From positions 1 to 21,384 of IMG/VR virus record IMGVR_UViG_3300005098_000018: DNA of 21,384 nucleotides; one strand, given 5' to 3'. How positions within the stretch are numbered: the first letter of the stretch is position 1; each line of letters opens with the position of its first letter. The notes beneath the pieces are model-generated. The model was not told the DNA's origin, ran no database searches, and was given only the letters and a program-made list of their open reading frames with translations. The translations under genes and the position numbers were made by a program. Source of the stretch: a virus. Positions 2,924-21,384 of the stretch are shown here, piece by piece.

Positions 2924-2980
2924 GTCTCCTAAGTTTCATTATATGTATGTGAGAAATGTGTTGAAGCGTCTTTGATATAT

Positions 2981-3958
2981 ATGAGTAAACTAACAAGATT
3001 ACTCCAGCTTGCATATGCAGGCAATTCTGAAAAAAAGAGACTGCTGAGTAATCCCCATGTAATTCATGATTTGGGAGGCAAAGACTCAAAGACATATAAA
3101 ACCCTCCTGCAGTCCGACTCTATCTCTGAAACTACCCTCCTGCAGGAAGAGGTCCATAAAACAGTTGTTGAGGGTGCGGAACCCTTCAAGTGTTTCAGAG
3201 ATGTTCTCCCGATAATAAAGACAGACTCTTATTCCGTAAGAGTCGTAACGTCTCAGGGCAACGCATATGCGGAAGACATAGCAGAGGGAGCTGAGATACC
3301 AATAGACACTGCATCTTATGCAAAGACTGACATCACGATTAAGAAAGTTGGTACAAGACCGCTTATTACAAATGAACTTATTGAAGATGCCCTCTTTGAT
3401 GTTGTTGAACTGGAGCTCAAGAAGGCAGGTGCCAGACTTGAAAATAAACTGAATAGAGACTGTCTGCAAGCAATACTTAAAGACCTTGATGGTATAAGCG
3501 ACGTTGACCCAACTGGTACGGCACTCTCCGTGACAGACTTGGCAACAGCTAGGGCATTAGTTGAATCTGAAGGCAGAATACCTGATACACTCATAACTCA
3601 CCCCATAGCAGAGGGTCAGCTACTGAAAGATACAAACTTGGTATACGTTGCATATGCTGGGCAAGGCAGAACACTCGAAACCGGAGAGCTCCCAAGAATA
3701 CTCGGTCTCAAGCCGTACACACTTTCGGTGACAACTGAAGATGGATTCACATACTATTGGGACGGCACGGATGGAGATAATCACTACTACGCTCTTGTGT
3801 TGGATTCCAACAATGCAGCATTCATAGCAATGAGGAGAGATATCACAATAGAGCAGTATGATGACCCAATCCACGACTTACTTGGAATATCATGTACAAT
3901 GAGATATGGTGTTTCAGTGGTTGACGACAAAGCTGGAGTAAGAATACTCACAAAGTGA
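2981..3958 (+). CDS. Major capsid protein, HK97 fold
   Basis: This 325-residue protein fits an HK97-type major capsid protein in length, position and motifs. It has a helical N-terminal arm (about 1-55, likely removed or rearranged during maturation), then EGAEPFKCFRDVLPIIKTDS and the E-loop/P-domain-like run AEGAEIPIDTASYAKTDITI. Next come the long spine helix ITNELIEDALFDVVELELKK and an A-domain with DTLITHPIAEGQLL. It ends in the typical final strands MRRDITIEQYDDPIHDLLGI and MRYGVSVVDDKAGVRIL. It forms the icosahedral shell. I chose ATG 2981; an in-frame TTG at 2972 would add three residues but has no better ribosome site. Upstream lies a 57-base gap after the decoration gene and downstream a 78-base gap, both without obvious signals. 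Confidence 0.92.
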   Translation: MSKLTRLLQLAYAGNSEKKRLLSNPHVIHDLGGKDSKTYKTLLQSDSISETTLLQEEVHKTVVEGAEPFKCFRDVLPIIKTDSYSVRVVTSQGNAYAEDIAEGAEIPIDTASYAKTDITIKKVGTRPLITNELIEDALFDVVELELKKAGARLENKLNRDCLQAILKDLDGISDVDPTGTALSVTDLATARALVESEGRIPDTLITHPIAEGQLLKDTNLVYVAYAGQGRTLETGELPRILGLKPYTLSVTTEDGFTYYWDGTDGDNHYYALVLDSNNAAFIAMRRDITIEQYDDPIHDLLGISCTMRYGVSVVDDKAGVRILTK

Positions 3959-5970: not shown

Positions 5971-6005
5971 TATGTATGTAGATGTTGATGGAGTAGGTGA
6001 ATAAT

Positions 6006-6452
6006 ATGGCAGGAATAGTAAGCGGAAAGGACGCAAAAATCTATATTGCGACATCTGCTGGAGATTTGGAGAATAAGGGTCATCAACTCTGGGGAATATC
6101 TGATTTCTCTCTAACATTCTCAAGAGATACAGTTGAACAGGAGCTAGTTGGTATGCCTGGGAATTATTTTAAAATAGGCGGACTTTCAGTTGAAGGCTCA
6201 TATACAAACTGTAAATTTGCGGCTTCTGGAGCTGCTGATGCCTTGAAGAGCATAGTTGAATCGACATACGTTCAGATTTCTGGATGTGTAGCAGATGGTT
6301 CTCTCCGCTGGTATTTTGCTTCATGTCAGATAACAGGTTATGATGTGTCCATCGGAGACGCTGATACTATATCAGAGGCATCCATTGATTTTACAGTGAT
6401 GGACCCATACAATGTAACCTACTCCAATGGATATATAACGGATACGGCATAA
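6006..6452 (+). CDS. Tail tube protein, copy 1
   Basis: This 148-residue beta-rich protein has the look of a major tail (tube) protein: GISDFSLTFSRDTVEQELVG, LSVEGSYTNCKFAASGAAD, and near the C-terminus ITGYDVSIGDADTISEASID followed by FTVMDPYNV. Tube proteins stack as hexameric rings to form the tail. The ATG at 6006 is preceded by a good AGGTGA ribosome site (5995-6000, five bases away), which argues against the in-frame GTG at 5997. The next gene is a clear paralogue sharing most of these motifs. No sheath gene lies nearby, so a long non-contractile tail is indicated. Two cysteines (NCKF, SGCVADG) are present; the second is conserved in the paralogue. Confidence 0.82.
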   Translation: MAGIVSGKDAKIYIATSAGDLENKGHQLWGISDFSLTFSRDTVEQELVGMPGNYFKIGGLSVEGSYTNCKFAASGAADALKSIVESTYVQISGCVADGSLRWYFASCQITGYDVSIGDADTISEASIDFTVMDPYNVTYSNGYITDTA

Positions 6453-6453
6453 T

Positions 6454-6897
6454 ATGGCGACTGAAACCTATACCGGAGAAAGTGCAAGCATAACAATAAA
6501 AGGATTGTCACACGCCGCCTTGGGCATATCTGACTTCTCTTTGACTTTATCAAAAGATACTATTGAAGAACCACTACTTGGTGAAAAAGGAAATTTCTAT
6601 ATGCAGGGGCCAATAAGTGTTGAGGGCTCGTTAACGGCAGCAAAACTTTCACACTCTGCAGCAGGTGCATTATTGGAGGCACTTATAAAAGGGAATACAG
6701 TAGAGATATCTGGCTGCGTTGGCGACAAATCATTGCATTTTTACTTCAAATCGGCACAGATAACAGGATTTGATATATCCATTGGAGATGCATCGACAAT
6801 AACCGAAGGGTCTATAGACTTCTCTCTGCTGATGCCTTATAAAGTATCTTCAGTAACATATCTGCCTGGCGGTGGTACATACATAAAGGACTTCTGA
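6454..6897 (+). CDS. Tail tube protein, copy 2 (tandem paralogue)
   Basis: This 147-residue protein starts one base after copy 1 ends (TAATATG) and repeats its motifs in order: GISDFSLTLSKDTIEEPLLG, PISVEGSLTAAKL, VEISGCVGDKSLHFYF, QITGFDISIGDASTITEGSI and DFSLLMPYKV. The central region has diverged most. The two proteins probably arose by tandem duplication and may form a mixed tube, or one may cap or initiate it. The stop is followed by a 69-base gap with a TATA-like run and a hairpin in front of the chaperone gene. The duplicate keeps the length and core strands, so it is unlikely to be decaying. Confidence 0.82.
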   Translation: MATETYTGESASITIKGLSHAALGISDFSLTLSKDTIEEPLLGEKGNFYMQGPISVEGSLTAAKLSHSAAGALLEALIKGNTVEISGCVGDKSLHFYFKSAQITGFDISIGDASTITEGSIDFSLLMPYKVSSVTYLPGGGTYIKDF

Positions 6898-8341: not shown

Positions 8342-9057
8342 TGTTTAATGTTTTTTCCAGTATTGGATACTACATGCCATACAAGGTGGTAGAAATGGCA
8401 TCCCAGCCTCACCCTCTTGTATATTTTTGGATTGCACATTATAATGATGGAACTTATGCTAGTCAGTTCGATTTAAATACTTTTAAAGAGAATTCTATTA
8501 AGATAATTGATAACTCTAAATTGATTAAGATTGGCTGGTATCCTATTCCATATGATTTGGCTGTAGAGCTCAACAAACGAGGGATACCGGCTATTGCAAA
8601 CCCCCTCCTTCCTAAAATTGAAGTTGAGATTAATAAAAATAAACGCTTCATCCTCTTTATGAGAAATTTTATCTCAATTGAAGAGTTTAGAATATGTGAA
8701 AATTGTGGAAGGGAATTTCAGGCAACTGGTGGTATCGAGTTTTATGGAGATTCCTATTGGCGTTCTCCAGTATGTCCACATTGCGGAAAGCATGACTATT
8801 GGCAGTGCAAGCAATGTGGTGCGAAATACGATTTGTTTAGCGTTACCGAATCCACTTCAAATGAAAAAGGCGGACGAGGTCACTGTCCGAAATGCGGTGG
8901 TTATCTCGAATTAATAAGAGTTACAAGTAAGCAGTATACTCGTGAGCGAAGATGGCGATTATATGTTGTAGGCTTCCAAGAAACCATTGCGGGTAGAAAT
9001 CATAAGGTTATGTTGTATGCTGACGAAAATGGTAATGTAGAAATGAAATATGATTGA
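8341..9057 (+). CDS. Double zinc-ribbon protein of the tail module
   Basis: This 238-residue protein has eight cysteines arranged as four CxxC pairs: C119/C122, C145/C148, C156/C159 and C182/C185. They give two consecutive zinc ribbons (CENCGRE ... CPHCGKH; CKQCGAK ... CPKCGGY). The N-terminal ~110 residues are unrecognised and mixed alpha/beta (IGYYMPYKVVEMASQPHPLV; LIKIGWYPIPYDLAVELNKR). The C-terminal ~50 residues contain basic RERRWRLYVVGFQET. Zinc ribbons bind nucleic acid or protein, or simply brace small folds. Inside a run of tail genes a structural or assembly role is as likely as regulation. It overlaps the previous stop by one base and is followed by the fibre gene after two bases. 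Function is not established. Confidence 0.75.
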   Translation: MFNVFSSIGYYMPYKVVEMASQPHPLVYFWIAHYNDGTYASQFDLNTFKENSIKIIDNSKLIKIGWYPIPYDLAVELNKRGIPAIANPLLPKIEVEINKNKRFILFMRNFISIEEFRICENCGREFQATGGIEFYGDSYWRSPVCPHCGKHDYWQCKQCGAKYDLFSVTESTSNEKGGRGHCPKCGGYLELIRVTSKQYTRERRWRLYVVGFQETIAGRNHKVMLYADENGNVEMKYD

Positions 9058-9059
9058 TT

Positions 9060-10868
9060 ATGAGTTGGAAAGACACTAAACAGCCTGGCGATATAATAAA
9101 AGCTACAGATTGGAATGAGTTAGCCGATACAGTTATTCAGACATCTGGTGCATTTTGGGCACATTCTGGAAATACCTCCAACCCTCATAATGTCACTTTA
9201 GAGCAAGCGAGGATGGCAAACAATATCGTTTCTGGAAATATTGATATGAACGACAATAAAATACTGAATCTCGCCGAACCAACTTCTATTCATGATGCAA
9301 CAACTAAATTCTATGTCGATAGAGCTGTAACGTCACTTGGTGCTGCATATTGTATGACCGATGAGACTGATGCTGAAACAGGTTATAAGTTATGCTCACT
9401 TACACCACCGGATGCTTCAGAAACATATATTGAAGTCTCAAATCTCTCTGATAATCAATTAATAGGAGCGTGGATTAGTGCACCAGATGAAGAGCCGGCT
9501 CGGTTACTTAAAGGAGTTTTTGACTGGTTTCCAACTTTGGAGAAGACTGCAGGAACTCAGACATTACGGGTTTATTGGAAGCTATTTGAACGTTCTGGAA
9601 GTGCTGAGACCGAAATCGCAACGTCTGCAGATAGTAATGAAGTAGATGGTAAGGCGTCTTATGTCATACCTTTGCTTTTATCCGATGATTACACCTTCTC
9701 CAGTGGTTCTAGAGTTGTTGGGAAATTATACGCTAGGGTTGAAGGAACCGGTTCATCTCCTACAATTCGCGTTTATTATCAAGGAAATACAGCTTCAAGA
9801 TGGGAAATACCTGCAAATTCCGAAACTTTCAGAAAAATCTTTATTCCATATTCAGGTGCAGTAGATGATGTACATCTAGGCTCTAAGCAACTAACCGCTG
9901 AGACATTAGAGGCATCTTCCATAGTTCTTGATGGTTATACTATAGATGAGATTTCAAATGACTCAAGCCTCAGCGATGATTCCCCAACAGCATTAACAAC
10001 TGAACATGCAGTGAGGATATTTGGTTTAACCAACTTTTACCCCTCTTCTGCTGGTCATGACCATGTTACGAATACTTCTAATCCACATAATGTAACCTAT
10101 TCTCAAGTTGGTGCAATCCAAGATGCTGATAATACAGTAAAGAGTAGCCACATTGATTGGGGAACCAGCACAAATCAAGTATCACTCGACGATGTTCCTG
10201 ATGGTGCAACTTATGGCAAACTCACAATAACGGAGAGAGATGACTTAACTGATGGTGGTGATTCATCTTTACATTATCATTCATCCGACAGAGACCTTTC
10301 CAATGCTACTGGCGTGTTAGCTATAGGAAAAGGAGGCACTAATAATACATCTTTCACATCAGATAAATTCCTCATCTATGATACCAATGAAGACAAAATA
10401 AAGTCTTCTAATTACGATGGCACTTCTTTCGCATCTGCGACACACACGCACACTCTCGATGATTTGAGCAATACTTCAATTTCTTCACCCCTTTCTGGGC
10501 AAGTCCTTTCATACTTAGGAAACTGGAAAAATGTCTCTCCACCTCTTACATTTAGCCTTCCTGCTGTAGGAATAAAAGGCAATCGCTATATTCGATTAGC
10601 TCGATTCACAACTCCCGAAAATAAAACAGCATATCTCTGGATGGCTCAGATAAGCGATATCAACGGAAATACGGTGAATGGACTCCGTATTGAAATGCTC
10701 TCCGGAAGTACAGTAGTGTATGCTTGCTCTAGTAATACAGTCGAGATAGGTTCGCCTCTTGCATCCACCGCAGGAGATATAACAATTCGGGTGATGTATT
10801 CTGGTGCAGGTATTGGTGATGATAGCTACGTGCAGTGTGTTGGATTTATGCAGGTATCGATAATATGA
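9060..10868 (+). CDS. Tail fibre protein
   Basis: This 602-residue protein has clear fibre motifs. Residues 61-90 (IDMNDNKILNLAEPTSIHDA, then TTKFYVDRAV) match the 'M-x-x-x-K-I-x-x-L-x-x-P-x-x-x-x-D-A-x-x-K-x-Y-V' element found in many phage fibres. The hexapeptide NPHNVT occurs twice (41-46 and 341-346), each in a TSNPHNVT context, as in repeat-type tail fibres. Two regions between and after look like beta-sandwich domains (about 100-275 and 485-602). It has no signal peptide. A His-rich stretch ATHTHTLDDL lies near residue 460. Role: host recognition at the tail tip or side. I chose ATG 9060; an in-frame TTG at 9054 is possible. Its TGA overlaps the next ATG (ATGA). Confidence 0.82.
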   Translation: MSWKDTKQPGDIIKATDWNELADTVIQTSGAFWAHSGNTSNPHNVTLEQARMANNIVSGNIDMNDNKILNLAEPTSIHDATTKFYVDRAVTSLGAAYCMTDETDAETGYKLCSLTPPDASETYIEVSNLSDNQLIGAWISAPDEEPARLLKGVFDWFPTLEKTAGTQTLRVYWKLFERSGSAETEIATSADSNEVDGKASYVIPLLLSDDYTFSSGSRVVGKLYARVEGTGSSPTIRVYYQGNTASRWEIPANSETFRKIFIPYSGAVDDVHLGSKQLTAETLEASSIVLDGYTIDEISNDSSLSDDSPTALTTEHAVRIFGLTNFYPSSAGHDHVTNTSNPHNVTYSQVGAIQDADNTVKSSHIDWGTSTNQVSLDDVPDGATYGKLTITERDDLTDGGDSSLHYHSSDRDLSNATGVLAIGKGGTNNTSFTSDKFLIYDTNEDKIKSSNYDGTSFASATHTHTLDDLSNTSISSPLSGQVLSYLGNWKNVSPPLTFSLPAVGIKGNRYIRLARFTTPENKTAYLWMAQISDINGNTVNGLRIEMLSGSTVVYACSSNTVEIGSPLASTAGDITIRVMYSGAGIGDDSYVQCVGFMQVSII

Positions 10869-13800
10869 GAAAATTGGATATAATTATATTAATATTGGCA
10901 TTCGGTCTCCTAACCTGCGGTTTTTTGGGTATATTTGGCTTAATAAATATCGGCATTTCTATTCCATTACTATACACTACGGCATCTCTATTGTCTGCAT
11001 TGATAGTGGTTTTTGCAAAAGATTTCATTTTACGTAGATGGAAGGAATTCCTAATAGCGAGCACTCTATTAGCATCTTCAATACTAGTTCCGATAGCTGG
11101 TCCTCTGGACTCACAGGGTCCATATAATCCTCATAAAATAGAAAATAGAGAAGCACCAGGAGGAAGAGTGGCGTGGGATAGTCCTCAGAGAGCTGAATCA
11201 TCCGACGATGGATATGCAACTGCCACATCCGAAAAAGAGAATTCATATACTCATTATTTATGGGCTTATATATTTAATTTCAACATTCCAACTTCGGCAA
11301 CCATCAATGGAATAAAAGTTGAAATAGAAAGACACGCAAGTGGAGTAGTGGGTGCTGATTATGTGGTTGATAACATAGTTCGGCTTATAAAGAATGGTGA
11401 AGTTGTTGGAGATAATAAGGCAGATGATACAACACATTGGCCTAGCACTGATACGTATGCTGTTTACGGTGGAAGCAATGATTTATGGGGTACTACTTGG
11501 ACTCCATCCAACATAAATAGTAATGAATTCGGTGTAGCTCTTTCCGTGTATCTAAATGGTGCAGTTCGTGTTGAAGCATATGTTGACCACATTCGAATAA
11601 CTGTTTATTATACAATTGGTGGGAACGACGCACCCGAACTCTCTAATGAGAATCCGTCTAACGGTTCTACCAATGTTGTTGTGTCAGATACTGGACTCAT
11701 ATGTTCTGTCTATGTCAGCGACCAAAACGGAGATACTCTCACAATTACCTGGGCTACCAACGCTTCAACAGGAGAATGGCATAATGTCGCAACAGAGGCT
11801 GTTTCTGCAAACACAACTGTCTCTCATACTTTTTCAGAATTCTACCAATATGACCAAACCTATTGGTGGCGAGTATATGCTGATGATGGCACTGTAAATG
11901 TTAGTGAGACATATCATTTTCATACTGAGGGTGAGACATACACTACTGATTGGTTTGACCCTGAAAACTACGGTTCTATCAAAAATGAATGGCAATCTCC
12001 ACAAAATGCCTTGGAAAATGATTCAAACTCTGCCACAGCACAATGCTCTTCCGACAAAGATGAAGAAGATTATTATACATTTGATGTAAATATTCCCAGC
12101 TATGCAACCATTAAAGGTATTGAAGTGGTGTTTGAAGGTAACATAATGCTTGCAATACCTGTACCTGATGATTCTCGGATATCAGTCAAGCTTTCATGGG
12201 ATGGAGGAAGTAGCTGGAGCGAAAGTAAAATAGTACAGTTTGAAAGTATTTCAGAAGAATCAGTTTCTGTTGGAGGAAGTGATGATTTATGGGGTCATAA
12301 TTGGACTCCACAAGAATTGACAAACTCAAATTTCAAATTATATGCTAAGGCTATCTTCAACTCTTCCAATCAAGATGCTGATTCCCAAATTGATTATATA
12401 AAATTAAGAATCTTTTATTCTACAAGCTCGAATCAACCGCCGACTGTTTCGAATCCCAATCCAGCAAATGGGTCGATTGACGTTCCTGTTTCACCAAGCG
12501 GAGTTACATGTTCAGCGTATTTTGCTGACCAAGATGGTGATAATTTAGACTTATCTTGGTATTACTCATTTGACGGTTCAACTTGGTATCATGATGGTAC
12601 GGACACCAACAAATCACCAAACGCCACCTATTCTCACACTTATAGTCAATTCACAGAAGCAGGTGTAACATACTATTGGAGAGTTTATGCAGACGATGGT
12701 ATGATGAATATTTCGTCAGACATTTGGCACTTTAGAACATCAGCTCCACATCTTTATGTGATAGTAAACGATACTGACTACAATTTAGCGGTTCAATACA
12801 AAACTTGGAAAGAAGCGAATTCTGGATACACCGTTATCATAAAGAAATTCTCAGAAATAGAGAGCAATTCCAACTACTGGGCAACAGGAGCTTGGGGTGA
12901 TAGAAATCCATCAAATCCCTTCTATGTTGAACAATCATCTTGGACGGCTGCTGATGGATATAACGATACTGCCTGTAGAGTTCGTAATTTTATTCGAGAT
13001 ATTTATACAAATGATTTAAGTCTTGCCGCAGTTCTATTTTTTGGAAAGGACCCATACAGGATGGGGTATTGGACCGGAACAGACCCAGGTGACACTTATC
13101 CACCAGGGCATACTATTGATTTGTGGTATTTTGGTGCTTTGAATGGTACACAAAATAAAAATGATAATGAATATTTTTGTGAAAATCCAGGCTGGGATGA
13201 TTTGACTGACTTTGAAGTTGAAGTAGTCATAGGGCGTTTTCCATATGGCAGTGAAGAGGAATTCTGGTATATGTTTAATAAGACTAAAGCATATGTTGCT
13301 GACACTTCGAGCGGTCAGTGGCAGAACTTCCTCTTTTTTGACAGAAGTTTAAGTACAAATACTGCTGAAGATGACATCTGGGTCAATAAACTCAATTTTA
13401 CATATTTTAATATTTTAGACAATGTTGGAGCATTACATTGTCCATCTTCTGCTGGACTTGACCATACAATAAGCGATTCGGTCCATAATTCGTATGAATT
13501 CATCCAATACTTAAATGGCACTCATCCAGATTATGAAGACGGATTAAGCTTCTTTATCAATGAAGGACATGGAGGTCAATGGTGGGATGGTGCACCTGGA
13601 ACTCCAGATGATGGATACTTTGATTATGAAGGAGCAGAAGAAAAGGCATTTGTTGGCATATCAATAGGCTGTGGAGATAATATTTGGCTATCCTTTCCAA
13701 CATATTATGAATCAATGGCAAAACTTATATTCAAGCGAGGGGGAGCAGTCATCACAGTTGGAACAACCAGCACGCACTCTGACGACCAGCTCGTATTTCG

Positions 13801-15892
13801 ATTCATAGATGCATTGCACTCCACAAATTGGACATACGGCGACGCTCTCAAATATATTGTCAATCACGGATATGAACCATATCATGATAGCGGAATATGC
13901 TTACTGGGAGACCCAACACTCAAACCGAAAAACACTAAATACACCAACATCAAGATTTATGGTCCCACAATGCGAAACAACACCTATTCAATTCCAGGGC
14001 ATCCCTATACCGAATTTAAATTTATAGACTTGCAAGGAGATGACATAGATTCTGCATCACTATATTTTTACGATGGTAGTAGCTGGCATCTTGCAAAAAC
14101 ATTTTCAGATGATGAAGTTGTGAATTTTGAAGAATACTCTTATCTCTACTCTAGTTGTAACTCACCAGACACAGTGTGCAGAATTAAAATAGTGTGTAAT
14201 GCAAATGGAATTGTTTCCACAGCAAATATGAGATTCCAAACCCATCCATACGACGACTGGACAATTTTCTATATAGAAAAGAATGACACCAATCAACTTC
14301 AACCACAGATTCATGGACTACTTAGTGGTTTAAGTTATGCATACTACTATAAATACGAAGGTCTAATTGATGGAGAATACAAAACTCTTGAAGAAGGAGT
14401 GGATATAGCAGAACATCATCACTTTACCATAACAAACACAACGTTTATGAATGATTATGGCAACTATACAATACGATGTACTTTTTCATCAACAGGTGTG
14501 ACAAGAACAGAAACATTTGTCAAAACAATCAGAACAAATTATCAAACACCAGACCTTACTCTACTTCCAAACGACAACGGCACTGTTATCAATAATAATA
14601 TCACTGCAAACGGAGCAACTTACAAATGGCAGTGTATTGATGATGGTTCTTCTCACGATAGTGATACGACATACATCGAGGGTGGCACCGGCGAAGAGAC
14701 ATTCAATTTCGAAGACACAACATCGAAGCTTAAATATTTGAAGATAGTCATAGTATCGAGAGCAACCGGTAGCATATATAACTATCTATATGTCACGTTG
14801 AAATTCGGCTCCCAGCTAACAAGAATTGCAAAGATAAAAGTAGATAATACAAACTACCAAACATTCATCGTCTATATTACTAAGAATCCCTTCGCAAACG
14901 AAAATTGGACAGCTGATAATTTGACAAATTTAGAAGTTGGTCTCTATTTTGAGCCTGCTATGGTGATACCATCACCACCAAAAATCAGGTGTACATCTCT
15001 TTACGTTGAAGGGGCTATTGAAAACACACCACCGACGCTATCTAGCCCATCGGCGACACCATCGGTCGGAGAAGCGAGCAGTACGATTTTCTATTTCAAT
15101 ATCACATATTCCGACCCAGATAATGACTCACCGACTGAGATAAGAGTAAATATCAGCAAACCTGGATGGTATCTAAATTCGAGTATGAGTTACGTTTCCG
15201 GTGATAATTTAACTGGAGCCTTATATTCCTATTCTACCACTCTAAAAGCAGGTGTCTATGGCATATCATTCTATGCATTCGATGGAAAAGATGGAACAGT
15301 AAACGACCCTGATATTCAAATCAAGTCCACTTTCCGCATGGTGGTTCGTGCGGATGGAGAAGACTACTTTATATGGGTTGGAAAGAATTGCACAGCATCT
15401 GAGGCTGTTGAAGACATCCCTGGATTCGATGAGACATCCGAATACATTGCAATCTGGAATGGCACAACTTGGGATTCCACAAATGGTCTTTGGATATTCT
15501 ACTACGGCGATGGCTCAGGAGAAGACTTTAATATCCATACCTACGACATCATTAGGATATATCTTACTGACACCGGAACTGTTGAGATATATGCAACTCC
15601 CAATAACTACATCAATTACAGTGCTACGAGAACAGTCCTTCTAATAAATTCAACAAATAAAGGAGCTAACTATACTGGTTATACTGGCTCTACTACAACA
15701 CTATCAGACATTGTTGATGACGCAGGCTTAGAAGACGGTGAAGTTATAGGCTATTGGGATAATAGCACCTATGAATGGGAGATATATGTTATTGGCTTCT
15801 CTGATTTGAATGTGGAGATTGATAAGTTCACTGTAGTGTACACTAAAGTTGGTGACACCAAGACGTGGAATATACCTGGGCCTGAAGCATGA
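10865..15892 (+). CDS. Giant membrane-anchored surface protein with Ig-like domains and a C25 (gingipain-type) cysteine peptidase
   Basis: 1675 residues. The N-terminus has three hydrophobic segments (about 5-27, 31-50, 61-80) with KDFILRRWK between the second and third, so the long remainder should lie outside the membrane. A two-domain unit follows twice: A1 (104-250) + Ig-like B1 (254-356), then A2 (376-519) + B2 (522-627). Residues about 629-1022 are a family C25 peptidase: FINEGHGGQWWDG with catalytic His902, SIGCGDNIW with Cys936, and the C-terminal LLGDPTLKP (from 1013). The His-Cys distance of 34 is close to that in gingipains. Further beta domains include one Ig-like (about 1386-1490) and a C-terminal domain starting YFIWVGKNCTAS (about 1500). 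N-x-S/T sequons are numerous. It lies between fibre genes and is translationally coupled to both neighbours. Likely role: cutting or binding the host envelope. Substrate and location (virion or infected cell surface) are unknown. Confidence 0.88.
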   Translation: MRKLDIIILILAFGLLTCGFLGIFGLINIGISIPLLYTTASLLSALIVVFAKDFILRRWKEFLIASTLLASSILVPIAGPLDSQGPYNPHKIENREAPGGRVAWDSPQRAESSDDGYATATSEKENSYTHYLWAYIFNFNIPTSATINGIKVEIERHASGVVGADYVVDNIVRLIKNGEVVGDNKADDTTHWPSTDTYAVYGGSNDLWGTTWTPSNINSNEFGVALSVYLNGAVRVEAYVDHIRITVYYTIGGNDAPELSNENPSNGSTNVVVSDTGLICSVYVSDQNGDTLTITWATNASTGEWHNVATEAVSANTTVSHTFSEFYQYDQTYWWRVYADDGTVNVSETYHFHTEGETYTTDWFDPENYGSIKNEWQSPQNALENDSNSATAQCSSDKDEEDYYTFDVNIPSYATIKGIEVVFEGNIMLAIPVPDDSRISVKLSWDGGSSWSESKIVQFESISEESVSVGGSDDLWGHNWTPQELTNSNFKLYAKAIFNSSNQDADSQIDYIKLRIFYSTSSNQPPTVSNPNPANGSIDVPVSPSGVTCSAYFADQDGDNLDLSWYYSFDGSTWYHDGTDTNKSPNATYSHTYSQFTEAGVTYYWRVYADDGMMNISSDIWHFRTSAPHLYVIVNDTDYNLAVQYKTWKEANSGYTVIIKKFSEIESNSNYWATGAWGDRNPSNPFYVEQSSWTAADGYNDTACRVRNFIRDIYTNDLSLAAVLFFGKDPYRMGYWTGTDPGDTYPPGHTIDLWYFGALNGTQNKNDNEYFCENPGWDDLTDFEVEVVIGRFPYGSEEEFWYMFNKTKAYVADTSSGQWQNFLFFDRSLSTNTAEDDIWVNKLNFTYFNILDNVGALHCPSSAGLDHTISDSVHNSYEFIQYLNGTHPDYEDGLSFFINEGHGGQWWDGAPGTPDDGYFDYEGAEEKAFVGISIGCGDNIWLSFPTYYESMAKLIFKRGGAVITVGTTSTHSDDQLVFRFIDALHSTNWTYGDALKYIVNHGYEPYHDSGICLLGDPTLKPKNTKYTNIKIYGPTMRNNTYSIPGHPYTEFKFIDLQGDDIDSASLYFYDGSSWHLAKTFSDDEVVNFEEYSYLYSSCNSPDTVCRIKIVCNANGIVSTANMRFQTHPYDDWTIFYIEKNDTNQLQPQIHGLLSGLSYAYYYKYEGLIDGEYKTLEEGVDIAEHHHFTITNTTFMNDYGNYTIRCTFSSTGVTRTETFVKTIRTNYQTPDLTLLPNDNGTVINNNITANGATYKWQCIDDGSSHDSDTTYIEGGTGEETFNFEDTTSKLKYLKIVIVSRATGSIYNYLYVTLKFGSQLTRIAKIKVDNTNYQTFIVYITKNPFANENWTADNLTNLEVGLYFEPAMVIPSPPKIRCTSLYVEGAIENTPPTLSSPSATPSVGEASSTIFYFNITYSDPDNDSPTEIRVNISKPGWYLNSSMSYVSGDNLTGALYSYSTTLKAGVYGISFYAFDGKDGTVNDPDIQIKSTFRMVVRADGEDYFIWVGKNCTASEAVEDIPGFDETSEYIAIWNGTTWDSTNGLWIFYYGDGSGEDFNIHTYDIIRIYLTDTGTVEIYATPNNYINYSATRTVLLINSTNKGANYTGYTGSTTTLSDIVDDAGLEDGEVIGYWDNSTYEWEIYVIGFSDLNVEIDKFTVVYTKVGDTKTWNIPGPEA
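11174..12745 (+). repeat. Tandem duplication of a two-domain unit (A-B-A-B) in the giant protein
   Basis: Unit 1 (11174-11930) and unit 2 (11990-12745) encode the same domain pair. A copies share 'W-x-SPQ', a VNIP/FNIP strand with 'ATI-x-GI-x-V', and DLWGTTWTP versus DLWGHNWTP, ending HIRITVYYT versus YIKLRIFYS. B copies share 'NP-x-NGS', 'DQ-x-GD', YWWRVYADDG versus YYWRVYADDG, and HFHT versus HFRT. The DNA has diverged, so the duplication is not recent. Confidence 0.85.
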
Positions 15893-16281
15893 CTCTGCCA
15901 ATTCCATTTCCGATATATGGTGAAACCAAGGATTCAAATGAAGATATTCTTCCGAATCTACCTGTGAAGATTTCAGGAACATCTGAAGTGACAGTTACTT
16001 CTGACGGAAACGGTAAATATCTTTATAACATTCAGAACATCGCTACAGAAGGCCAAGATTTACATGTGAGAGCATCATATCTTGGTGAGCACACCGACAT
16101 AACTTGGAATGTTAGTTTAACACCGCCATCTAAGCGTATAGATGTTATCCTTCAAGAGTCTATAAGTACTGGAGAAAAATGTCTCAATGGCTATCGCGCA
16201 GTTGGTAATCAGGCTTATATCTTTACGTCTAAAGAAGTTGAGTCGTATCTAAAGATATCAGATATTGATTGGAAAGCATGA
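15889..16281 (+). CDS. Small Ig-like (carboxypeptidase-regulatory-like) surface protein
   Basis: A 130-residue protein whose first ~95 residues look like a beta-sandwich of the carboxypeptidase-regulatory/Cna-B type. The N-terminal strand is LPIPFPIYGETKDSNEDILP, then LPVKISGTSEVTVTSDGNGK, YLYNIQNI and a closing strand THIT-like region TDITWNVSL. A 'T-x-x-DGNGKY' turn is typical of these domains. The C-terminal ~35 residues (ILQESISTGEKCLNGYRAVG onward) are unrecognised. It has no signal peptide. It starts by ATGA overlap with the giant protein and ends by ATGA overlap with the repeat protein, so the three are translated as a set. An accessory fibre or adaptor domain is plausible. Confidence 0.7.
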   Translation: MTLPIPFPIYGETKDSNEDILPNLPVKISGTSEVTVTSDGNGKYLYNIQNIATEGQDLHVRASYLGEHTDITWNVSLTPPSKRIDVILQESISTGEKCLNGYRAVGNQAYIFTSKEVESYLKISDIDWKA

Positions 16282-17945
16282 CTCTATATTCAGCATTATT
16301 TGATACAGGGAAATTTGATTTCTCTTATTTTAATCGTCAGTTTACAGAGTTTTCTATTGATACACTTCTTAAGGAAATTAATCTTAGAAGCCACACTTTT
16401 TCATCTTTAATCCAGTCCATCCAGAAACGGCATTATGCTATTGATTCACTCTTCCAAGAGACTGTTGAAATTGCTAAAGAATTAGATTCTCTTCTTCAGA
16501 AGACAAAGGAAGTTTCTGCTAATGTTGATGCTCTACTCCAACGTGCAGATACTGCTTCTCTTGTAATCGACACATTATTATCACAATCTCAATCATTGTC
16601 AGAATATATCAACACTATTCTTCTACAGGAAAACATTACCAAAGAACAGTATATTGATGTCTTACTCCAAAGTCAATATATTCTCTCATCTGTTATTTCT
16701 ACCCTTCTCGAGCTAAGAGGTGTATTGATTTCGCATAACATTTCAACTTTACTCGAGAAGACATTTGACATTCGTAGTGAAATAAGTGCTCTAGTTCAAG
16801 TAACAAAATCTTTGGTGCATCCACTTCATAGTCTTCTCCAACACACCACTCATCTTTCTCATAATATTTCAACACTTCTCTCTAAGACTTATACATTAGT
16901 AACCAAAATTGATACTCTTCTAGGCACCATCAACCAAGAAGTTGTTTATTCACTTAATACTCTTATTTTAGGTGTCCAGTCACTTATGTATCGATTCCAA
17001 TCTGTTGTTGGCTCCTCCAATTTTGCTGAATATTATGTCAATGCAGTACTCCAAGAAAAGACAATGAAATCTTATGTTTTACATGCCATTGCAGAACTGC
17101 AGAATATAGAAGTAAGAAATATCCTCAATGCTCTTCTTTCCCAAATCAATGAAAAACAACTGGACTTCAATGCAATCCTCCAATCTCTCGAATCTCTTCC
17201 TATTTCGTTTGATGTGCAATTAGAAGCATCGAGTGTTCTCCAATCTCTCTTCGATGCGATAGTCCAAAAAGAAACTGCAATTTCTCATACACTTCTTTCC
17301 ACACTTGAAAAAATGCTTGGTAAAGAATACCTCTTGGATGTTATTCTTTCTTGCATTAAGAGCACTGATGCTTTCATTGATGCCATAATTTCAATATCAA
17401 ATCTTTCTATTCAACATATATTAGATGCAATATTGTCTAGGAGAGAAAGTCCCAAATATAAATTCGACACTGTAGTTGGTGCCGCAAATTTTGTATTTAT
17501 GTATCTTGATGCCATACTTTCTAAGAAGACACTAGAATCGATGATTTTAGATGCTCTAACCATAACCACAAGAAGAGCTGATTATACTCACAACTCTTTT
17601 CTGAAGAAGCAGTATAAGAAAAGTCTATACGCTGATTCAATACTCCTTGGAAAGAAGGAAGAGAGAATCAAGTTCTTAACAACATTGCTAAAGCTTGGCG
17701 TTGCTAGAGACTTTATATTTAATTCAATTATTCAATCTCGAAATCTTGCAACGTATGATTTTGATTCCTATCTCTTGCCAGAAGCCCCTCTTCGTAGCTA
17801 TACACTTCAAACCATTCTCTCAGGACCAAATATTTCAACCCTCTCCTTTACTGTATACATCTTTAGACGCGGATTTATAGACACTGTTGAAACTTCAATT
17901 TCTCCGATTATGGAAATATCTGCACGTGCGTCTGCAGTTTGTTAA
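16278..17945 (+). CDS. Repeat protein of 35 units of a ~14-residue motif, probable fibre or rod
   Basis: 555 residues. From residue 28 to 524 the whole protein divides without gaps into 35 units, 26 of them 14 residues long, eight of 15 and one of 13. The pattern is [D/N/S]-[A/T/S]-hydrophobic-hydrophobic, eight to nine variable residues, and a closing hydrophobic (I, L, V or F). Examples are DSLLQKTKEVSANV, DALLQRADTASLVI and DAILSKKTLESMIL. There is no signal peptide or membrane segment. A solenoid or an unusual coiled coil would make an extended rod, suiting a fibre. Start is ATG 16278, overlapping the previous stop; an in-frame TTG at 16269 would add three residues. It is followed by another small Ig-like gene. 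I do not recognise a named family. Confidence 0.8.
   Translation: MTLYSALFDTGKFDFSYFNRQFTEFSIDTLLKEINLRSHTFSSLIQSIQKRHYAIDSLFQETVEIAKELDSLLQKTKEVSANVDALLQRADTASLVIDTLLSQSQSLSEYINTILLQENITKEQYIDVLLQSQYILSSVISTLLELRGVLISHNISTLLEKTFDIRSEISALVQVTKSLVHPLHSLLQHTTHLSHNISTLLSKTYTLVTKIDTLLGTINQEVVYSLNTLILGVQSLMYRFQSVVGSSNFAEYYVNAVLQEKTMKSYVLHAIAELQNIEVRNILNALLSQINEKQLDFNAILQSLESLPISFDVQLEASSVLQSLFDAIVQKETAISHTLLSTLEKMLGKEYLLDVILSCIKSTDAFIDAIISISNLSIQHILDAILSRRESPKYKFDTVVGAANFVFMYLDAILSKKTLESMILDALTITTRRADYTHNSFLKKQYKKSLYADSILLGKKEERIKFLTTLLKLGVARDFIFNSIIQSRNLATYDFDSYLLPEAPLRSYTLQTILSGPNISTLSFTVYIFRRGFIDTVETSISPIMEISARASAVC
16359..17849 (+). repeat. 35 tandem ~42-bp units coding the 14-residue repeat
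   Basis: 497 codons are accounted for exactly by 35 consecutive units. The repeat is visible only in the protein; DNA copies are not close to identical, so it is an old, purifying-selected array rather than a recent expansion. Early units favour I/V/L at the last position, later ones favour F/L. Confidence 0.8.
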
Positions 17946-17967: not shown

Positions 17968-18276
17968 ATGGCTTATAGTTGTTACGAACGTGGTACAACC
18001 ATAAAAGTAACTGCAGAATTCAAATCATCAGGACAGTTAGTAGACCCTTTATATCCCAAGATTAATGTGTATAAGCCCGATGGTACGAAACTTGTGAATA
18101 ATGCAACACCATTCAAGTCTGATGTTGGTAAATACTTCTACTTCATTGAAACTTCATCAAATGCAATGCTCGGGTTATATACCATTGAATGGGTTGGCTG
18201 GTCTCTCCTTGGCGGTGCACTTGGTTCAGGACAAATTATTCAGCGTGAAGTATTTCAGCTTGTTGAGATTGAATAA
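17968..18276 (+). CDS. Small Ig-like structural protein before the tape measure
   Basis: A 102-residue beta-rich protein: ERGTTIKVTAEFKSSGQLVD, then PLYPKINVYKPDGTKLVNN, SDVGKYFYFIETSS, and LGLYTIEWVGW followed by a Gly-rich loop and a last strand REVFQLVEIE. The pattern of strand, 'DP-x-x-P-x-I-x-I-x-x-PDG', 'G-x-Y-x-Y' and 'G-x-Y-x-x-x-W' is that of small Ig-like/macroglobulin-like proteins often seen among phage fibre and baseplate genes. It lacks a signal peptide and membrane segment. A weak AGGA site precedes the ATG. It closes the surface-gene block. A part in fibre attachment is inferred from position only. Confidence 0.7.
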   Translation: MAYSCYERGTTIKVTAEFKSSGQLVDPLYPKINVYKPDGTKLVNNATPFKSDVGKYFYFIETSSNAMLGLYTIEWVGWSLLGGALGSGQIIQREVFQLVEIE

Positions 18277-18439: not shown

Positions 18440-21384
18440 ATGCCATCTCTTGGTGAATTATCTGTTAGATTAGTCCTCGATTTCCGAGGAATTGCAGGAC
18501 AGCTAAAGCAATTTAGAAAAGTACTCCAATCTGGTCTCAATGCCATTTCTAAAGAAATTGCAGCAGGCTTTAAACCATTTGGCGTCACCGCTCAACAATT
18601 CGAAAAAGCTGTAAAAAATATTACCAAGGCTGCTGCGAAGTCAACTGCTAAAGCTCAGATTGCGATAGATAAAGCAGCTGAGAAGTCGAAACAAGCAACT
18701 GAGCGGATGAGTCGTGATGTTTCCACTCGCATTCCATCGGCGTTTTATACACTATATCGTAGAACTGATGAATCAATTGGACAAACCCTCAAAACAATTT
18801 TTTCATTTAGGAATATGGTTGCAAAGATTGCTCACTATATCACATTCACAGTCGGTGTACAATTAGTTATGACACTTGTTCGCGGCTTCAGAGAGATGGT
18901 TGATAGTACAGAAGAATTTCAAAGAGCAATAGTTAATGCTGCAACCATCTCTGGATATCTTGGTGATGCATTCGATGAAGTTGTTCAACATCTGTCGAAA
19001 CTCGCTTTAGCACTTTCTAAAGAAACAATCTTCTCTGCAACAGATGTGGCAAAAGCCTTCTATCAGATTGCATCAGCAGGATATGACGTCTCAAAACTCA
19101 CTAAAAGAGAATTGATTCCTATACTTCAATATGCTGCTGCAACCCAAACAAATCTAGAAGATGCAACCTATGCTGTTCTTACTGCACTAAAATCATTCAG
19201 ATTAGATATATCGGAGACTGGTAGAGTCGTAGATGTGTTTACGGCTGCAATAACTAAATCCTTCCAGAATTTCCAGCGACTTAAAGAGGGTATGAAATAC
19301 GTGGGTGCAACAGCAGGCTCTCTCAACCTCTCTTTAGAAGAGACAGTTGCAGCTCTCTCCGCATTGGTTGATAGAGGACTAGAAGGAAGTCAGGCTGGAC
19401 AGCGTCTCAACATGATTCTTACTAGACTACTTAAACCTACCGACCAAGCAGCTGAAACGCTGCAGCAACTTGGGTTGACAGCAGACGATGTAAATCCAAA
19501 ATATTATAGCCTCGTAGAAATTCTTTATAAACTCAAGGCTGCAGGTTTTGGTGCTGCAGAAGCATCAGCGATGTTCAGGGCTAGAACAGCTGCCTCTGCC
19601 ATGGTTCTTGTCGATTCCGCAGATAGTGTTGCAAGATTTTCAGAGATGCTCAGACAGTCGCAAGGCATCACAGAATCAGTTGCAAAATATCAGGAGAAGA
19701 CATTATGGGGAGCACTCACGAAGATGACAAACGCATTTCAAGCTGCCACAATAACTCTGGGTGAAAAACTCATTCCTGTATTTGAAAATCTTGCAAACTT
19801 CATCAAGACTAGAGTTGTTCCTGCATTCGACGCATTTAGTATTTTATTCTCAATTCTTAAACGTCTCTTACCACTTTTCATAGGATATAAGGTTACAATT
19901 TTCATCATGAATAAGCTCTTTAAGAGTGTTACTGCTGCAGTTCTTCTTAAAGCTGCTGCATTCACACAATCGGCTAAAGCAACGCTACAAGAAGCTATTG
20001 CTGCAAGAATAGCTGCACAAATGAATAATAGCTATGCAATTTCTGCTACAAATGCTGCAGCAGCTCAAAGAGCCTTAAACCTTGCATTAATAGCAAATCC
20101 AATAGGTTTGTTCCTTTTTGCACTTTCCTCTCTTGTCTCTTATATTGCACTCTTCAACATCACCACGAAAAAGGCCAAGGACCCACTGGGTGAATTGAAT
20201 ATGGAAATCCTTAATGCAGCTGAATTCACTGAACAATGGAAGAATGAATTAAGAGATTTCATGAAAGTTGCTTATGGAAAAGCTTTTGGTAAAGATGTGT
20301 CATTCATGATTAAAACTCTTCAAGATTTTGGAATAGTTGCAAAGGGAACAAATGCATTAGTTAAAAACTTATTTGTAGATATGGCTAAACATCCAGAACA
20401 ATATTCAGCAACTTATGAAAAGCTTGCTGAGAAAATGGGTATGAGTGTCGACGAGGTAAAGAACTATGTTAAATATCTTTCAAACATCCCCGAAGTTATT
20501 ATCCTTCCCCCTCTTCTTACTCCGCTGCCAAATCTTAGAGAAACTATGGCACCTAAATTATTTAAAGCACTTGCTGAGATTATTAAAGAATTTGGCGTTG
20601 ATATTGCAGTTTTTGTGGAAGAAGCATCAGGCGAGATATTTGGATTCCAAATTTCACTCGCTGAAATGAAAGATGCGCTGGATGAAGCTAGGTTGGCGCA
20701 AGAAAATCTTAATAGAATTCTTAAGGAATCGCCTGATGATTATGATGCAATAAGAAATGCGGCAATGAGGTGTGTTGAAGCACAGGAAAAGCTGGATTCA
20801 ATAGAAAATAACTTCTTAGTAACTCTAAAGAATGTCATACAAACAATTCGTGCCTTGCCTGGCCCTTATGACAAAATGATTCAACTCTTGGAAGACATGG
20901 CATCTGCATCCTATGACGCTTTCACTGCAAAAAAAGAGTTAGAACAAGCAATTCGAGATGAAAGCGAGGCTGTGGAAGAGTTAGCAAATGCTATCGCTGT
21001 TTACGGTATGGAATCATTTGAGGCTAGAAATGCTGAGTATAAACTATTTGGTGCAATGAAGACAAGAGTTCGTGTGGAAGAAGAGTATGCTAATGCAAAA
21101 CGAGAATATACTGCTGCAGAAAGAGAATATCAATATATGCTCAAGCATGGGATAAAAATAAAAAAAGAGGATGGTACTGTTACAATAAAGCTTAATGAAA
21201 CACAAAAGCAACTTCTCTCCTTTGCTAAGGATTTGATAGATTTGAGAGAACAATATATCAAATTGGAAAGTGAGTACACACAGTACCAAGCGAAGGAGCA
21301 AGGATATCAATATCTCTTAGAGAAGGGAGAGCGAGCTCTTGCTGAGAAAGCAAAGCTATTATACGAAGCGAGGAAGAAGCTCTA
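18440..21384 (+). CDS. Tape measure protein (3' end outside window)
   Basis: The frame is open from ATG 18440 to the right edge, at least 981 residues. A GTGAT site (18430-18434) sits five bases before the ATG. Residues 57-94 are an Ala/Lys helix. A hydrophobic segment lies at about 125-147 (IAHYITFTVGVQLVMTLV). The TP901-type tape measure core is at about 155-350, with QIASAGYDVSKL around 213, ALVDRGLEGSQAGQRLNMIL around 307 and KPTDQAAETLQQLG near its end. Further hydrophobic segments lie at about 476-495 and 549-574 (LIANPIGLFLFALSSLVSYI), the 'NPIG' helix common in this family. After that come long coiled coils. Tape measures fix tail length, chaperone tube assembly and often pass into the host envelope. 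The full length, and hence tail length, cannot be read here. Confidence 0.9.
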   Translation, partial: MPSLGELSVRLVLDFRGIAGQLKQFRKVLQSGLNAISKEIAAGFKPFGVTAQQFEKAVKNITKAAAKSTAKAQIAIDKAAEKSKQATERMSRDVSTRIPSAFYTLYRRTDESIGQTLKTIFSFRNMVAKIAHYITFTVGVQLVMTLVRGFREMVDSTEEFQRAIVNAATISGYLGDAFDEVVQHLSKLALALSKETIFSATDVAKAFYQIASAGYDVSKLTKRELIPILQYAAATQTNLEDATYAVLTALKSFRLDISETGRVVDVFTAAITKSFQNFQRLKEGMKYVGATAGSLNLSLEETVAALSALVDRGLEGSQAGQRLNMILTRLLKPTDQAAETLQQLGLTADDVNPKYYSLVEILYKLKAAGFGAAEASAMFRARTAASAMVLVDSADSVARFSEMLRQSQGITESVAKYQEKTLWGALTKMTNAFQAATITLGEKLIPVFENLANFIKTRVVPAFDAFSILFSILKRLLPLFIGYKVTIFIMNKLFKSVTAAVLLKAAAFTQSAKATLQEAIAARIAAQMNNSYAISATNAAAAQRALNLALIANPIGLFLFALSSLVSYIALFNITTKKAKDPLGELNMEILNAAEFTEQWKNELRDFMKVAYGKAFGKDVSFMIKTLQDFGIVAKGTNALVKNLFVDMAKHPEQYSATYEKLAEKMGMSVDEVKNYVKYLSNIPEVIILPPLLTPLPNLRETMAPKLFKALAEIIKEFGVDIAVFVEEASGEIFGFQISLAEMKDALDEARLAQENLNRILKESPDDYDAIRNAAMRCVEAQEKLDSIENNFLVTLKNVIQTIRALPGPYDKMIQLLEDMASASYDAFTAKKELEQAIRDESEAVEELANAIAVYGMESFEARNAEYKLFGAMKTRVRVEEEYANAKREYTAAEREYQYMLKHGIKIKKEDGTVTIKLNETQKQLLSFAKDLIDLREQYIKLESEYTQYQAKEQGYQYLLEKGERALAEKAKLLYEARKKL

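Follow-up and report, generated by a model that had tools for sequence, protein, structure and literature searches.

A family of 14/15-residue repeat proteins, predicted to be alpha-helical, in a probably archaeal tailed virus and its relatives

Tailed phages carry trimeric tail fibres, and to our knowledge the fibres of non-halophilic archaeal tailed viruses are almost unknown. The archaeal tailed virus HFTV1 possesses trimeric tail fibres together with a helical tape measure (PMC12494034). Long helical proteins with an irregular repeat are represented by heptad coiled coils with skip residues, for which PMC4786415 gives periodicities of 7/2 and 15/4. Surveys exist of the tailed viruses of archaea and of the viruses of ANME-1 (PMC8651126, PMC9894754); the words 'peptidase', 'fibre' and 'adhesin' are absent from the latter text, and a tie between the surveyed viruses and the present one would be a guess. 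Here we describe a repeat protein encoded in a viral DNA stretch of 21,384 nucleotides (IMG/VR record IMGVR_UViG_3300005098_000018), the whole of which is referred to as the window.

The repeat and its family

The repeat gene, its parts and the capsid gene used for finding relatives are as follows.

2972..3958, + strand: HK97-type major capsid protein, the query for finding relatives
16278..17945, + strand: 14/15-residue repeat protein, 555 aa from ATG 16278 (TTG 16269 possible)
16290..16334, + strand: N-terminal cap motif S-A-x-F-D-T-G-K-F-x-x-S-Y-F-N, common to family members in varied form
16359..17849, + strand: 35 unit spacings, 28 of 14 and 7 of 15 residues, from an unsupervised parse and a held-out profile
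17850..17945, + strand: C-terminal tail (FTVYIFRRGFIDT... SPIMEIS...), partly common to relatives

With the TTG start the reading frame spans 16269-17945; the ATG at 16278 is more likely to be used, since it forms an ATGA overlap with the stop codon of the preceding gene. The unsupervised parse placed 36 unit cores between residue 31 (base 16359) and residue 528 (17850), a distance of 497 residues, and the 35 units counted over this region in the preliminary description proved exact. In the cap motif, S, A, F, F, S, F and N are invariant in all five rows of alignment A4, and A, F, F, S, F and N in all six rows of alignment A6.

Hydropathy of the window protein showed a top periodicity peak of 19.0 at 3.55 residues, then 12.6 at 14.2, then 7.1. 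As 500 shuffles gave a mean maximum of 5.5 and a most extreme value of 12.55, the 14.2-residue peak taken alone merely equals the latter. Lag-14 identity was 0.194 against a background of about 0.07. The decisive test for the reality of the repeat was the held-out profile. Trained on other proteins alone, the unit profile scored the window protein at 160 (300 shuffles, maximum 7.9), and a profile with the two nearest relatives held out scored it at 174 (100 shuffles, maximum 5.5), so the periodicity near 14 claimed earlier was recovered by repeat detection. All ten family proteins reached 155-297 with held-out profiles, with shuffle maxima of 5.5-8.9, and the top non-family ORF scored 8.0 among 603 distinct ORFs of at least 150 aa from all loci collected. 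No DNA-level direct repeats of at least 20 nt occur within the gene; therefore the units are old and held at the protein level.

Thirty-nine IMG/VR records, reached via the capsid protein, were searched with the window protein, which matched seven of them at E ≤10, all seven at 3e-5 or better. The seven-unit profile A5 matched 11 of 43 records at E ≤1, or 10 after G013 was discounted as a carrier (E 0.03 over 17 profile positions). The rows of A5 come from 7 of the 10 carrier records, only G002, G024 and G041 being new to it and close to members inside, and records with no repeat match may be fragments. A scan with a second seed yielded no further carrier. By sequence comparison, the repeat is thus a family, present besides the window in 10 other IMG/VR records: G002, G003, G010, G022, G023, G024, G036, L063 (G040), L073 (G041) and L077 (G042). 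G023 and G024 are identical over their shared 460 residues.

The parse gave 36 units in the window, 48 in G002, 33 in G023, 36 in G010, 35 in L063, 45 in L077, 29 and 63 in the two tandem genes of G036, 44 in G022 (cut by the contig end) and 48 in G003 (a few more, since the gene runs across the contig ends). The preliminary description had proposed looking for the motif elsewhere and comparing unit numbers; besides the 10 further records, this comparison revealed 29-63 units in proteins not cut off. A recent duplication behind the extra units of G002 was rejected, as identity between the copies is 46% at the protein and 57% at the DNA level; they would be old if they are a duplication at all. 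The repeat genes of L063 and L073 show 48 differences in 1626 bases and a dN/dS of 0.08, so in this one pair the gene is kept by selection. N-terminal additions, judged by eye, comprise a beta-helix-like stretch in G003 and a lectin-like one in G036a; Pfam gave no match to either.

Several further observations were made on these records. The repeat gene of G022 (L069 10918-13122) holds a higher-order repeat, with 53% identity at a unit offset of 7 against a median of 27%. The contig ends of G003 (L116 / L065, 89379 b) share 123 identical bases though the record is listed as linear, which makes a complete, circularly permuted genome probable. L071 (QNBZ01000001.1), filed under a Planctomycetota MAG, has 26938 b and a capsid match as in IMGVR 3300013103_000052, a near relative of the virus studied here, and is probably a misbinned virus contig.

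Capsid matches were haloarchaeal viruses in 9 of 11 records. For the tape measure protein (TMP), the best E of the 20 matches listed belonged to a Methanosarcinales-assigned virus, while 874 records matched in all, mostly bacterial. An archaeal host is likely for this tailed virus.

Neither in the window nor in its relatives did any repeat region pass the cut-off in Pfam, PHROGs or NCBIfam (PHROGs come without a curated cut-off), the best family match of the window protein being DUF948 at 20.3 bits (cut-off 37.2). The profile of a loose three-unit alignment (A3) found no match in the PDB, and the best A5 match there, YbgF (E 0.032), was taken as composition. Searches of phages with three relatives and of plasmids with one relative returned no repeat match, and the window protein gave E 3 or worse among the phage matches listed. 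Open-access texts searched for a repeat of 14 residues, in phages or in viruses of archaea, yielded no paper. The description of the repeat as undescribed thus stands across Pfam, PHROGs, NCBIfam, the PDB, phages and plasmids in terms of significant matches. What appears new to the databases and literature searched is the 14/15 repeat itself; skip-residue coiled coils and trimeric fibres are already known.

Unit types and predicted structure

Each unit starts with D/N/S at position 0, positions 2 and 3 are L/I, and position 13, directly before the D/N/S of the next unit, is I/L/F-like in about 90%. In the window, large hydrophobic residues occupy a and d of the first heptad in 93% each, but a and d of the second in only 25% and 46%. 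A canonical coiled coil has a hydrophobic a and d in every heptad, and the window repeat does not. The 15-residue units differ from the 14-residue ones in the middle: [NDG]-[ILV] at positions 7-8 was present in 90 of 151 15-mers versus 15 of 248 14-mers (Fisher p 1.5e-32), and the looser [NDGS]-[ILVMF] in 5/7 versus 6/28 for the window alone. In terms of helix capping, we take this dipeptide to be a helix C-cap plus turn. The 15-residue units therefore read as a distinct, putatively helix-breaking type.

Spacing of the 15-mers was under-dispersed in the window (0.048), G002 (0.004), G036a (0.028) and G022 (0.0006), and not in G003, G023, G010 or G036b. Even spacing would be expected if 15-mers merely correct helix phase. 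The outcome of this test is mixed, the window and G002 being close relatives and G022 carrying its higher-order repeat.

A seven-unit stretch was modelled with the following result.

16380..16676, + strand: modelled as a single helix over residues 2-83 of 99, then a break and a short helix (AlphaFold2, pLDDT 91.5)
16629..16640, + strand: helix break E-N-I-T in the first 15-residue unit (AlphaFold2 model and unit-type comparison)

AlphaFold2, given seven window units in 30 rows, returned a model of mean pLDDT 91.5 and pTM 0.52, with an 82-residue helix (2-83), a break at 84-87 (E-N-I-T) and a second helix (88-98). The break falls in the sole 15-mer wholly within 16380-16676. The alignment consisted of the window and 29 register-matched rows, mixing different units and proteins; rows were selected by spacing pattern and out-of-register rows pruned, hence it leans to regularity. 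Lone helices commonly receive high pLDDT. A full-length monomer model from five rows (pLDDT 35.5, pTM 0.22), with helices of mixed length, was set aside, and Foldseek of the helix model against the PDB gave no match (best E 6). Alpha-range periodicity power was 18.9 in the window, 27.5 in G002 and 17.3 in L063; the distant G022, G036a and L077 displayed scant alpha-type periodicity, exceeded by that at the unit and its third harmonic.

On these predictions, the 14/15-residue unit is most likely alpha-helical. The earlier equation of 14 residues with two heptads of one helix agrees with the 82-residue modelled helix and the 3.55-residue periodicity. For the interrupted coiled coil suggested at the same time, the single helix with two heptads per unit holds up and the canonical heptads do not, given the weakly hydrophobic second heptad. 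The rod was also called uniform, which the helix-breaking 15-mers and the weak second heptad contradict.

The most serious alternative, although an unlikely one, is that each unit forms its own short helix and that turns link these into a compact alpha-solenoid or bundle rather than an extended rod. Position 10 of the 14-mers is rich in S/N/D (N-cap-like), and prolines in 14-mers are confined to positions 6-12 (20/20) with none at 13 or 0-5, so some 14-mers may break the helix too. In distant family members about half of the units are 15-mers, which would leave most helices at 14-45 residues, and G003 gave weak helix-turn-helix matches. However, the modelled helix runs unbroken over five window 14-mers, and the window, G002 and L063 combine the 3.55-residue periodicity with long 14-mer runs of up to 10 units.

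Gene neighbourhood and possible role

The genes around the repeat gene are listed below.

10835..15892, + strand: 1685-aa protein with a C25 peptidase domain (E 3.4e-21) and three N-terminal TM-like segments
15889..16281, + strand: CarboxypepD_reg-like small protein (E 0.003, below cut-off), whose stop overlaps the repeat gene start
17968..18276, + strand: small Ig/MG2-like protein (weak MG2 match), directly downstream of the repeat gene
18440..21384, + strand: TMP (PF10145 3.8e-37), open at the window end

The gene order begins with capsid, connectors, two tail tubes, a chaperone-like and a fibre-like gene (9054-10868), followed by the C25 peptidase protein, the CarboxypepD_reg-like protein, the repeat protein, the Ig/MG2-like protein and the tape measure. 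Connectors, tail tubes and chaperone are presumptive names, given by position and the usual phage gene order. The two tail-tube-like genes at 5997-6897 are related and in tandem (mutual E 1.5e-38), some relatives having four, and the head maturation protease at 795-2489 contains a YPYPYPYPSKYPYPSKYPYPKK stretch as well as an extended acidic region. In the C25 (gingipain-like) protein the His of NEGHGG and the Cys of SIGCGDN are both present, and we take these motifs to be of the catalytic type.

The ATG of the CarboxypepD_reg-like gene overlaps the peptidase stop. Translational coupling of the repeat gene to the peptidase, as first proposed, would accordingly be indirect, via this gene, with which the repeat ATGA overlaps rather than with the peptidase. 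The CarboxypepD_reg-like domain forms a separate adjoining gene in the window, G002 and L063, makes up one protein with the repeat in G022 and G036b (BLASTP E 2e-6 and 0.002, four-sequence database), and in G023 lies one gene further off. The Ig-like gene directly follows the repeat gene in 8/8 loci extending beyond it. In L063 the order is C25-like, CarboxypepD_reg-like, repeat, Ig-like, then connectors and tail tubes, at a distance from the TMP, and L073 shares this order from the repeat gene onward. As the repeat gene stands upstream of the connectors there, its location does not depend on the tape-measure gene. Between L063 and the window the C25 region is up to 87% identical (best segment) and the CarboxypepD_reg-like protein 84%, the repeat protein only 28%, which suggests that the shaft was swapped while the head stayed conserved.

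We favour, at somewhat better than even odds, the reading that the repeat protein serves as the shaft of a tail fibre or of a comparable appendage on the virion, in which helices of n x 14 residues are joined by 15-mer hinges; its gene shares a cassette with those of the C25 peptidase protein and two small Ig-like proteins. It builds on what is established, namely the repeat, its two unit types, the family, the conserved neighbours, purifying selection in one pair and a confident seven-unit helix prediction. To this we add by inference an oligomer, an extended shape, hinges, location in a fibre and a host-contact function with the C25 peptidase. Runs of 14-residue units, strong in the I-D-[TSA]-L-L half and weaker in the other, would form long straight helices, probably pairing with identical helices. 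Every 15-residue unit, in many cases with [NDG]-[ILV] mid-unit, would stop the helix and provide a hinge or turn, and unit number and hinge placement would determine how long the shaft is and how it bends. Its N-terminal end would meet the small beta domain (CarboxypepD_reg-like, separate in the window and fused in relatives), and the shaft would display the peptidase and beta domains or link them to the tail. By arithmetic, the rod would measure about 74 nm if all window units were one straight helix (498 residues x 0.15 nm), whereas hairpins at the 15-mers would leave it far shorter. Against this reading, the TM-like segments of the C25 neighbour are odd for a virion fibre.

It is considerably less probable that the protein is helical and resides inside the tail, assisting the tape measure or related to it. 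The repeat gene lies just upstream of the TMP, with the small Ig-like gene between, in 6/7 loci showing both, and has weak PHROG tail/TMP matches (E 0.005 and 0.24); moreover, the HFTV1 TMP is a hexameric coiled coil according to PMC12494034. But the window has its separate TMP, no TMP among the scored ORFs exceeded 5.4 with the unit profile, L063 and L073 keep the repeat gene elsewhere, and in relatives the repeat is joined to a beta domain of surface type.

It is quite improbable that the protein belongs, with the C25 protein, to a membrane-anchored surface complex which the infected cell makes (e.g. for superinfection block) and which is absent from the virion. The large neighbour has TM-like N-termini in 5/5 cassettes examined for them (window, G002, G023, G022 and G036), and in L077 and G010 the large protein encoded upstream has none; the repeat protein itself lacks a TM-like segment, and its gene sits among late structural genes. 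Least probable of all, and hardly tenable for the window protein, is a rod of beta-solenoid type in which every unit makes one coil: the solenoid of the preliminary description is favoured by the D/N-rich unit starts and the strong 2.06-residue peak (17.3) and third harmonic of G022, but the 99-residue model has no strand, beta-range (2.0-2.5) power in the window is 3.8, under the mean shuffle maximum of 6.8, and adjacent L-L with low Gly (1.8%) suit a helix better.

Returning to the fibre shaft, we put forward only tentatively, and regard as doubtful, its extension to a new class of modular helical rods, probably of archaeal tailed viruses, in which 14-mers extend the helix, 15-mers hinge it, unit order codes the length and bends of a host-contact fibre, and rods are swapped independently of the peptidase head. 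The two unit types, natural length variants and peptidase partner make a defined structural target, and the family offers a way to ask how such viruses get through S-layers. A two-letter helical code might inform rod design, only if the hinge reading is true.

Comparison with described systems

Tape measure proteins (PF10145) resemble the repeat protein as long, here predicted, helical proteins of the tail gene block. Unlike them, it has a different repeat and gave no match when PF10145 was sought, a separate TMP is present, and the gene position is not tied to it.

Compared with the fibres of HFTV1 and tailed phages, the likeness lies in a late-gene position amid tail genes and a length variable among relatives, here read from genes alone, and in an elongated repeat protein with terminal caps, the elongation here being predicted from sequence. 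No sequence similarity to those fibres was found, and the upstream C25 peptidase with TM-like segments sets the present locus apart.

Skip-residue coiled coils (PMC4786415) share with the repeat the 14 residues that equal two heptads, the one-residue insertions giving 15, and an average of about 3.55-3.65 residues per turn. Unlike them, the window repeat is strongly hydrophobic in the first heptad of the unit only and keeps a conserved D/N at every unit start, and its insertion sites often bear a helix-stop signature, the modelled one being predicted as a break instead of a pi-turn.
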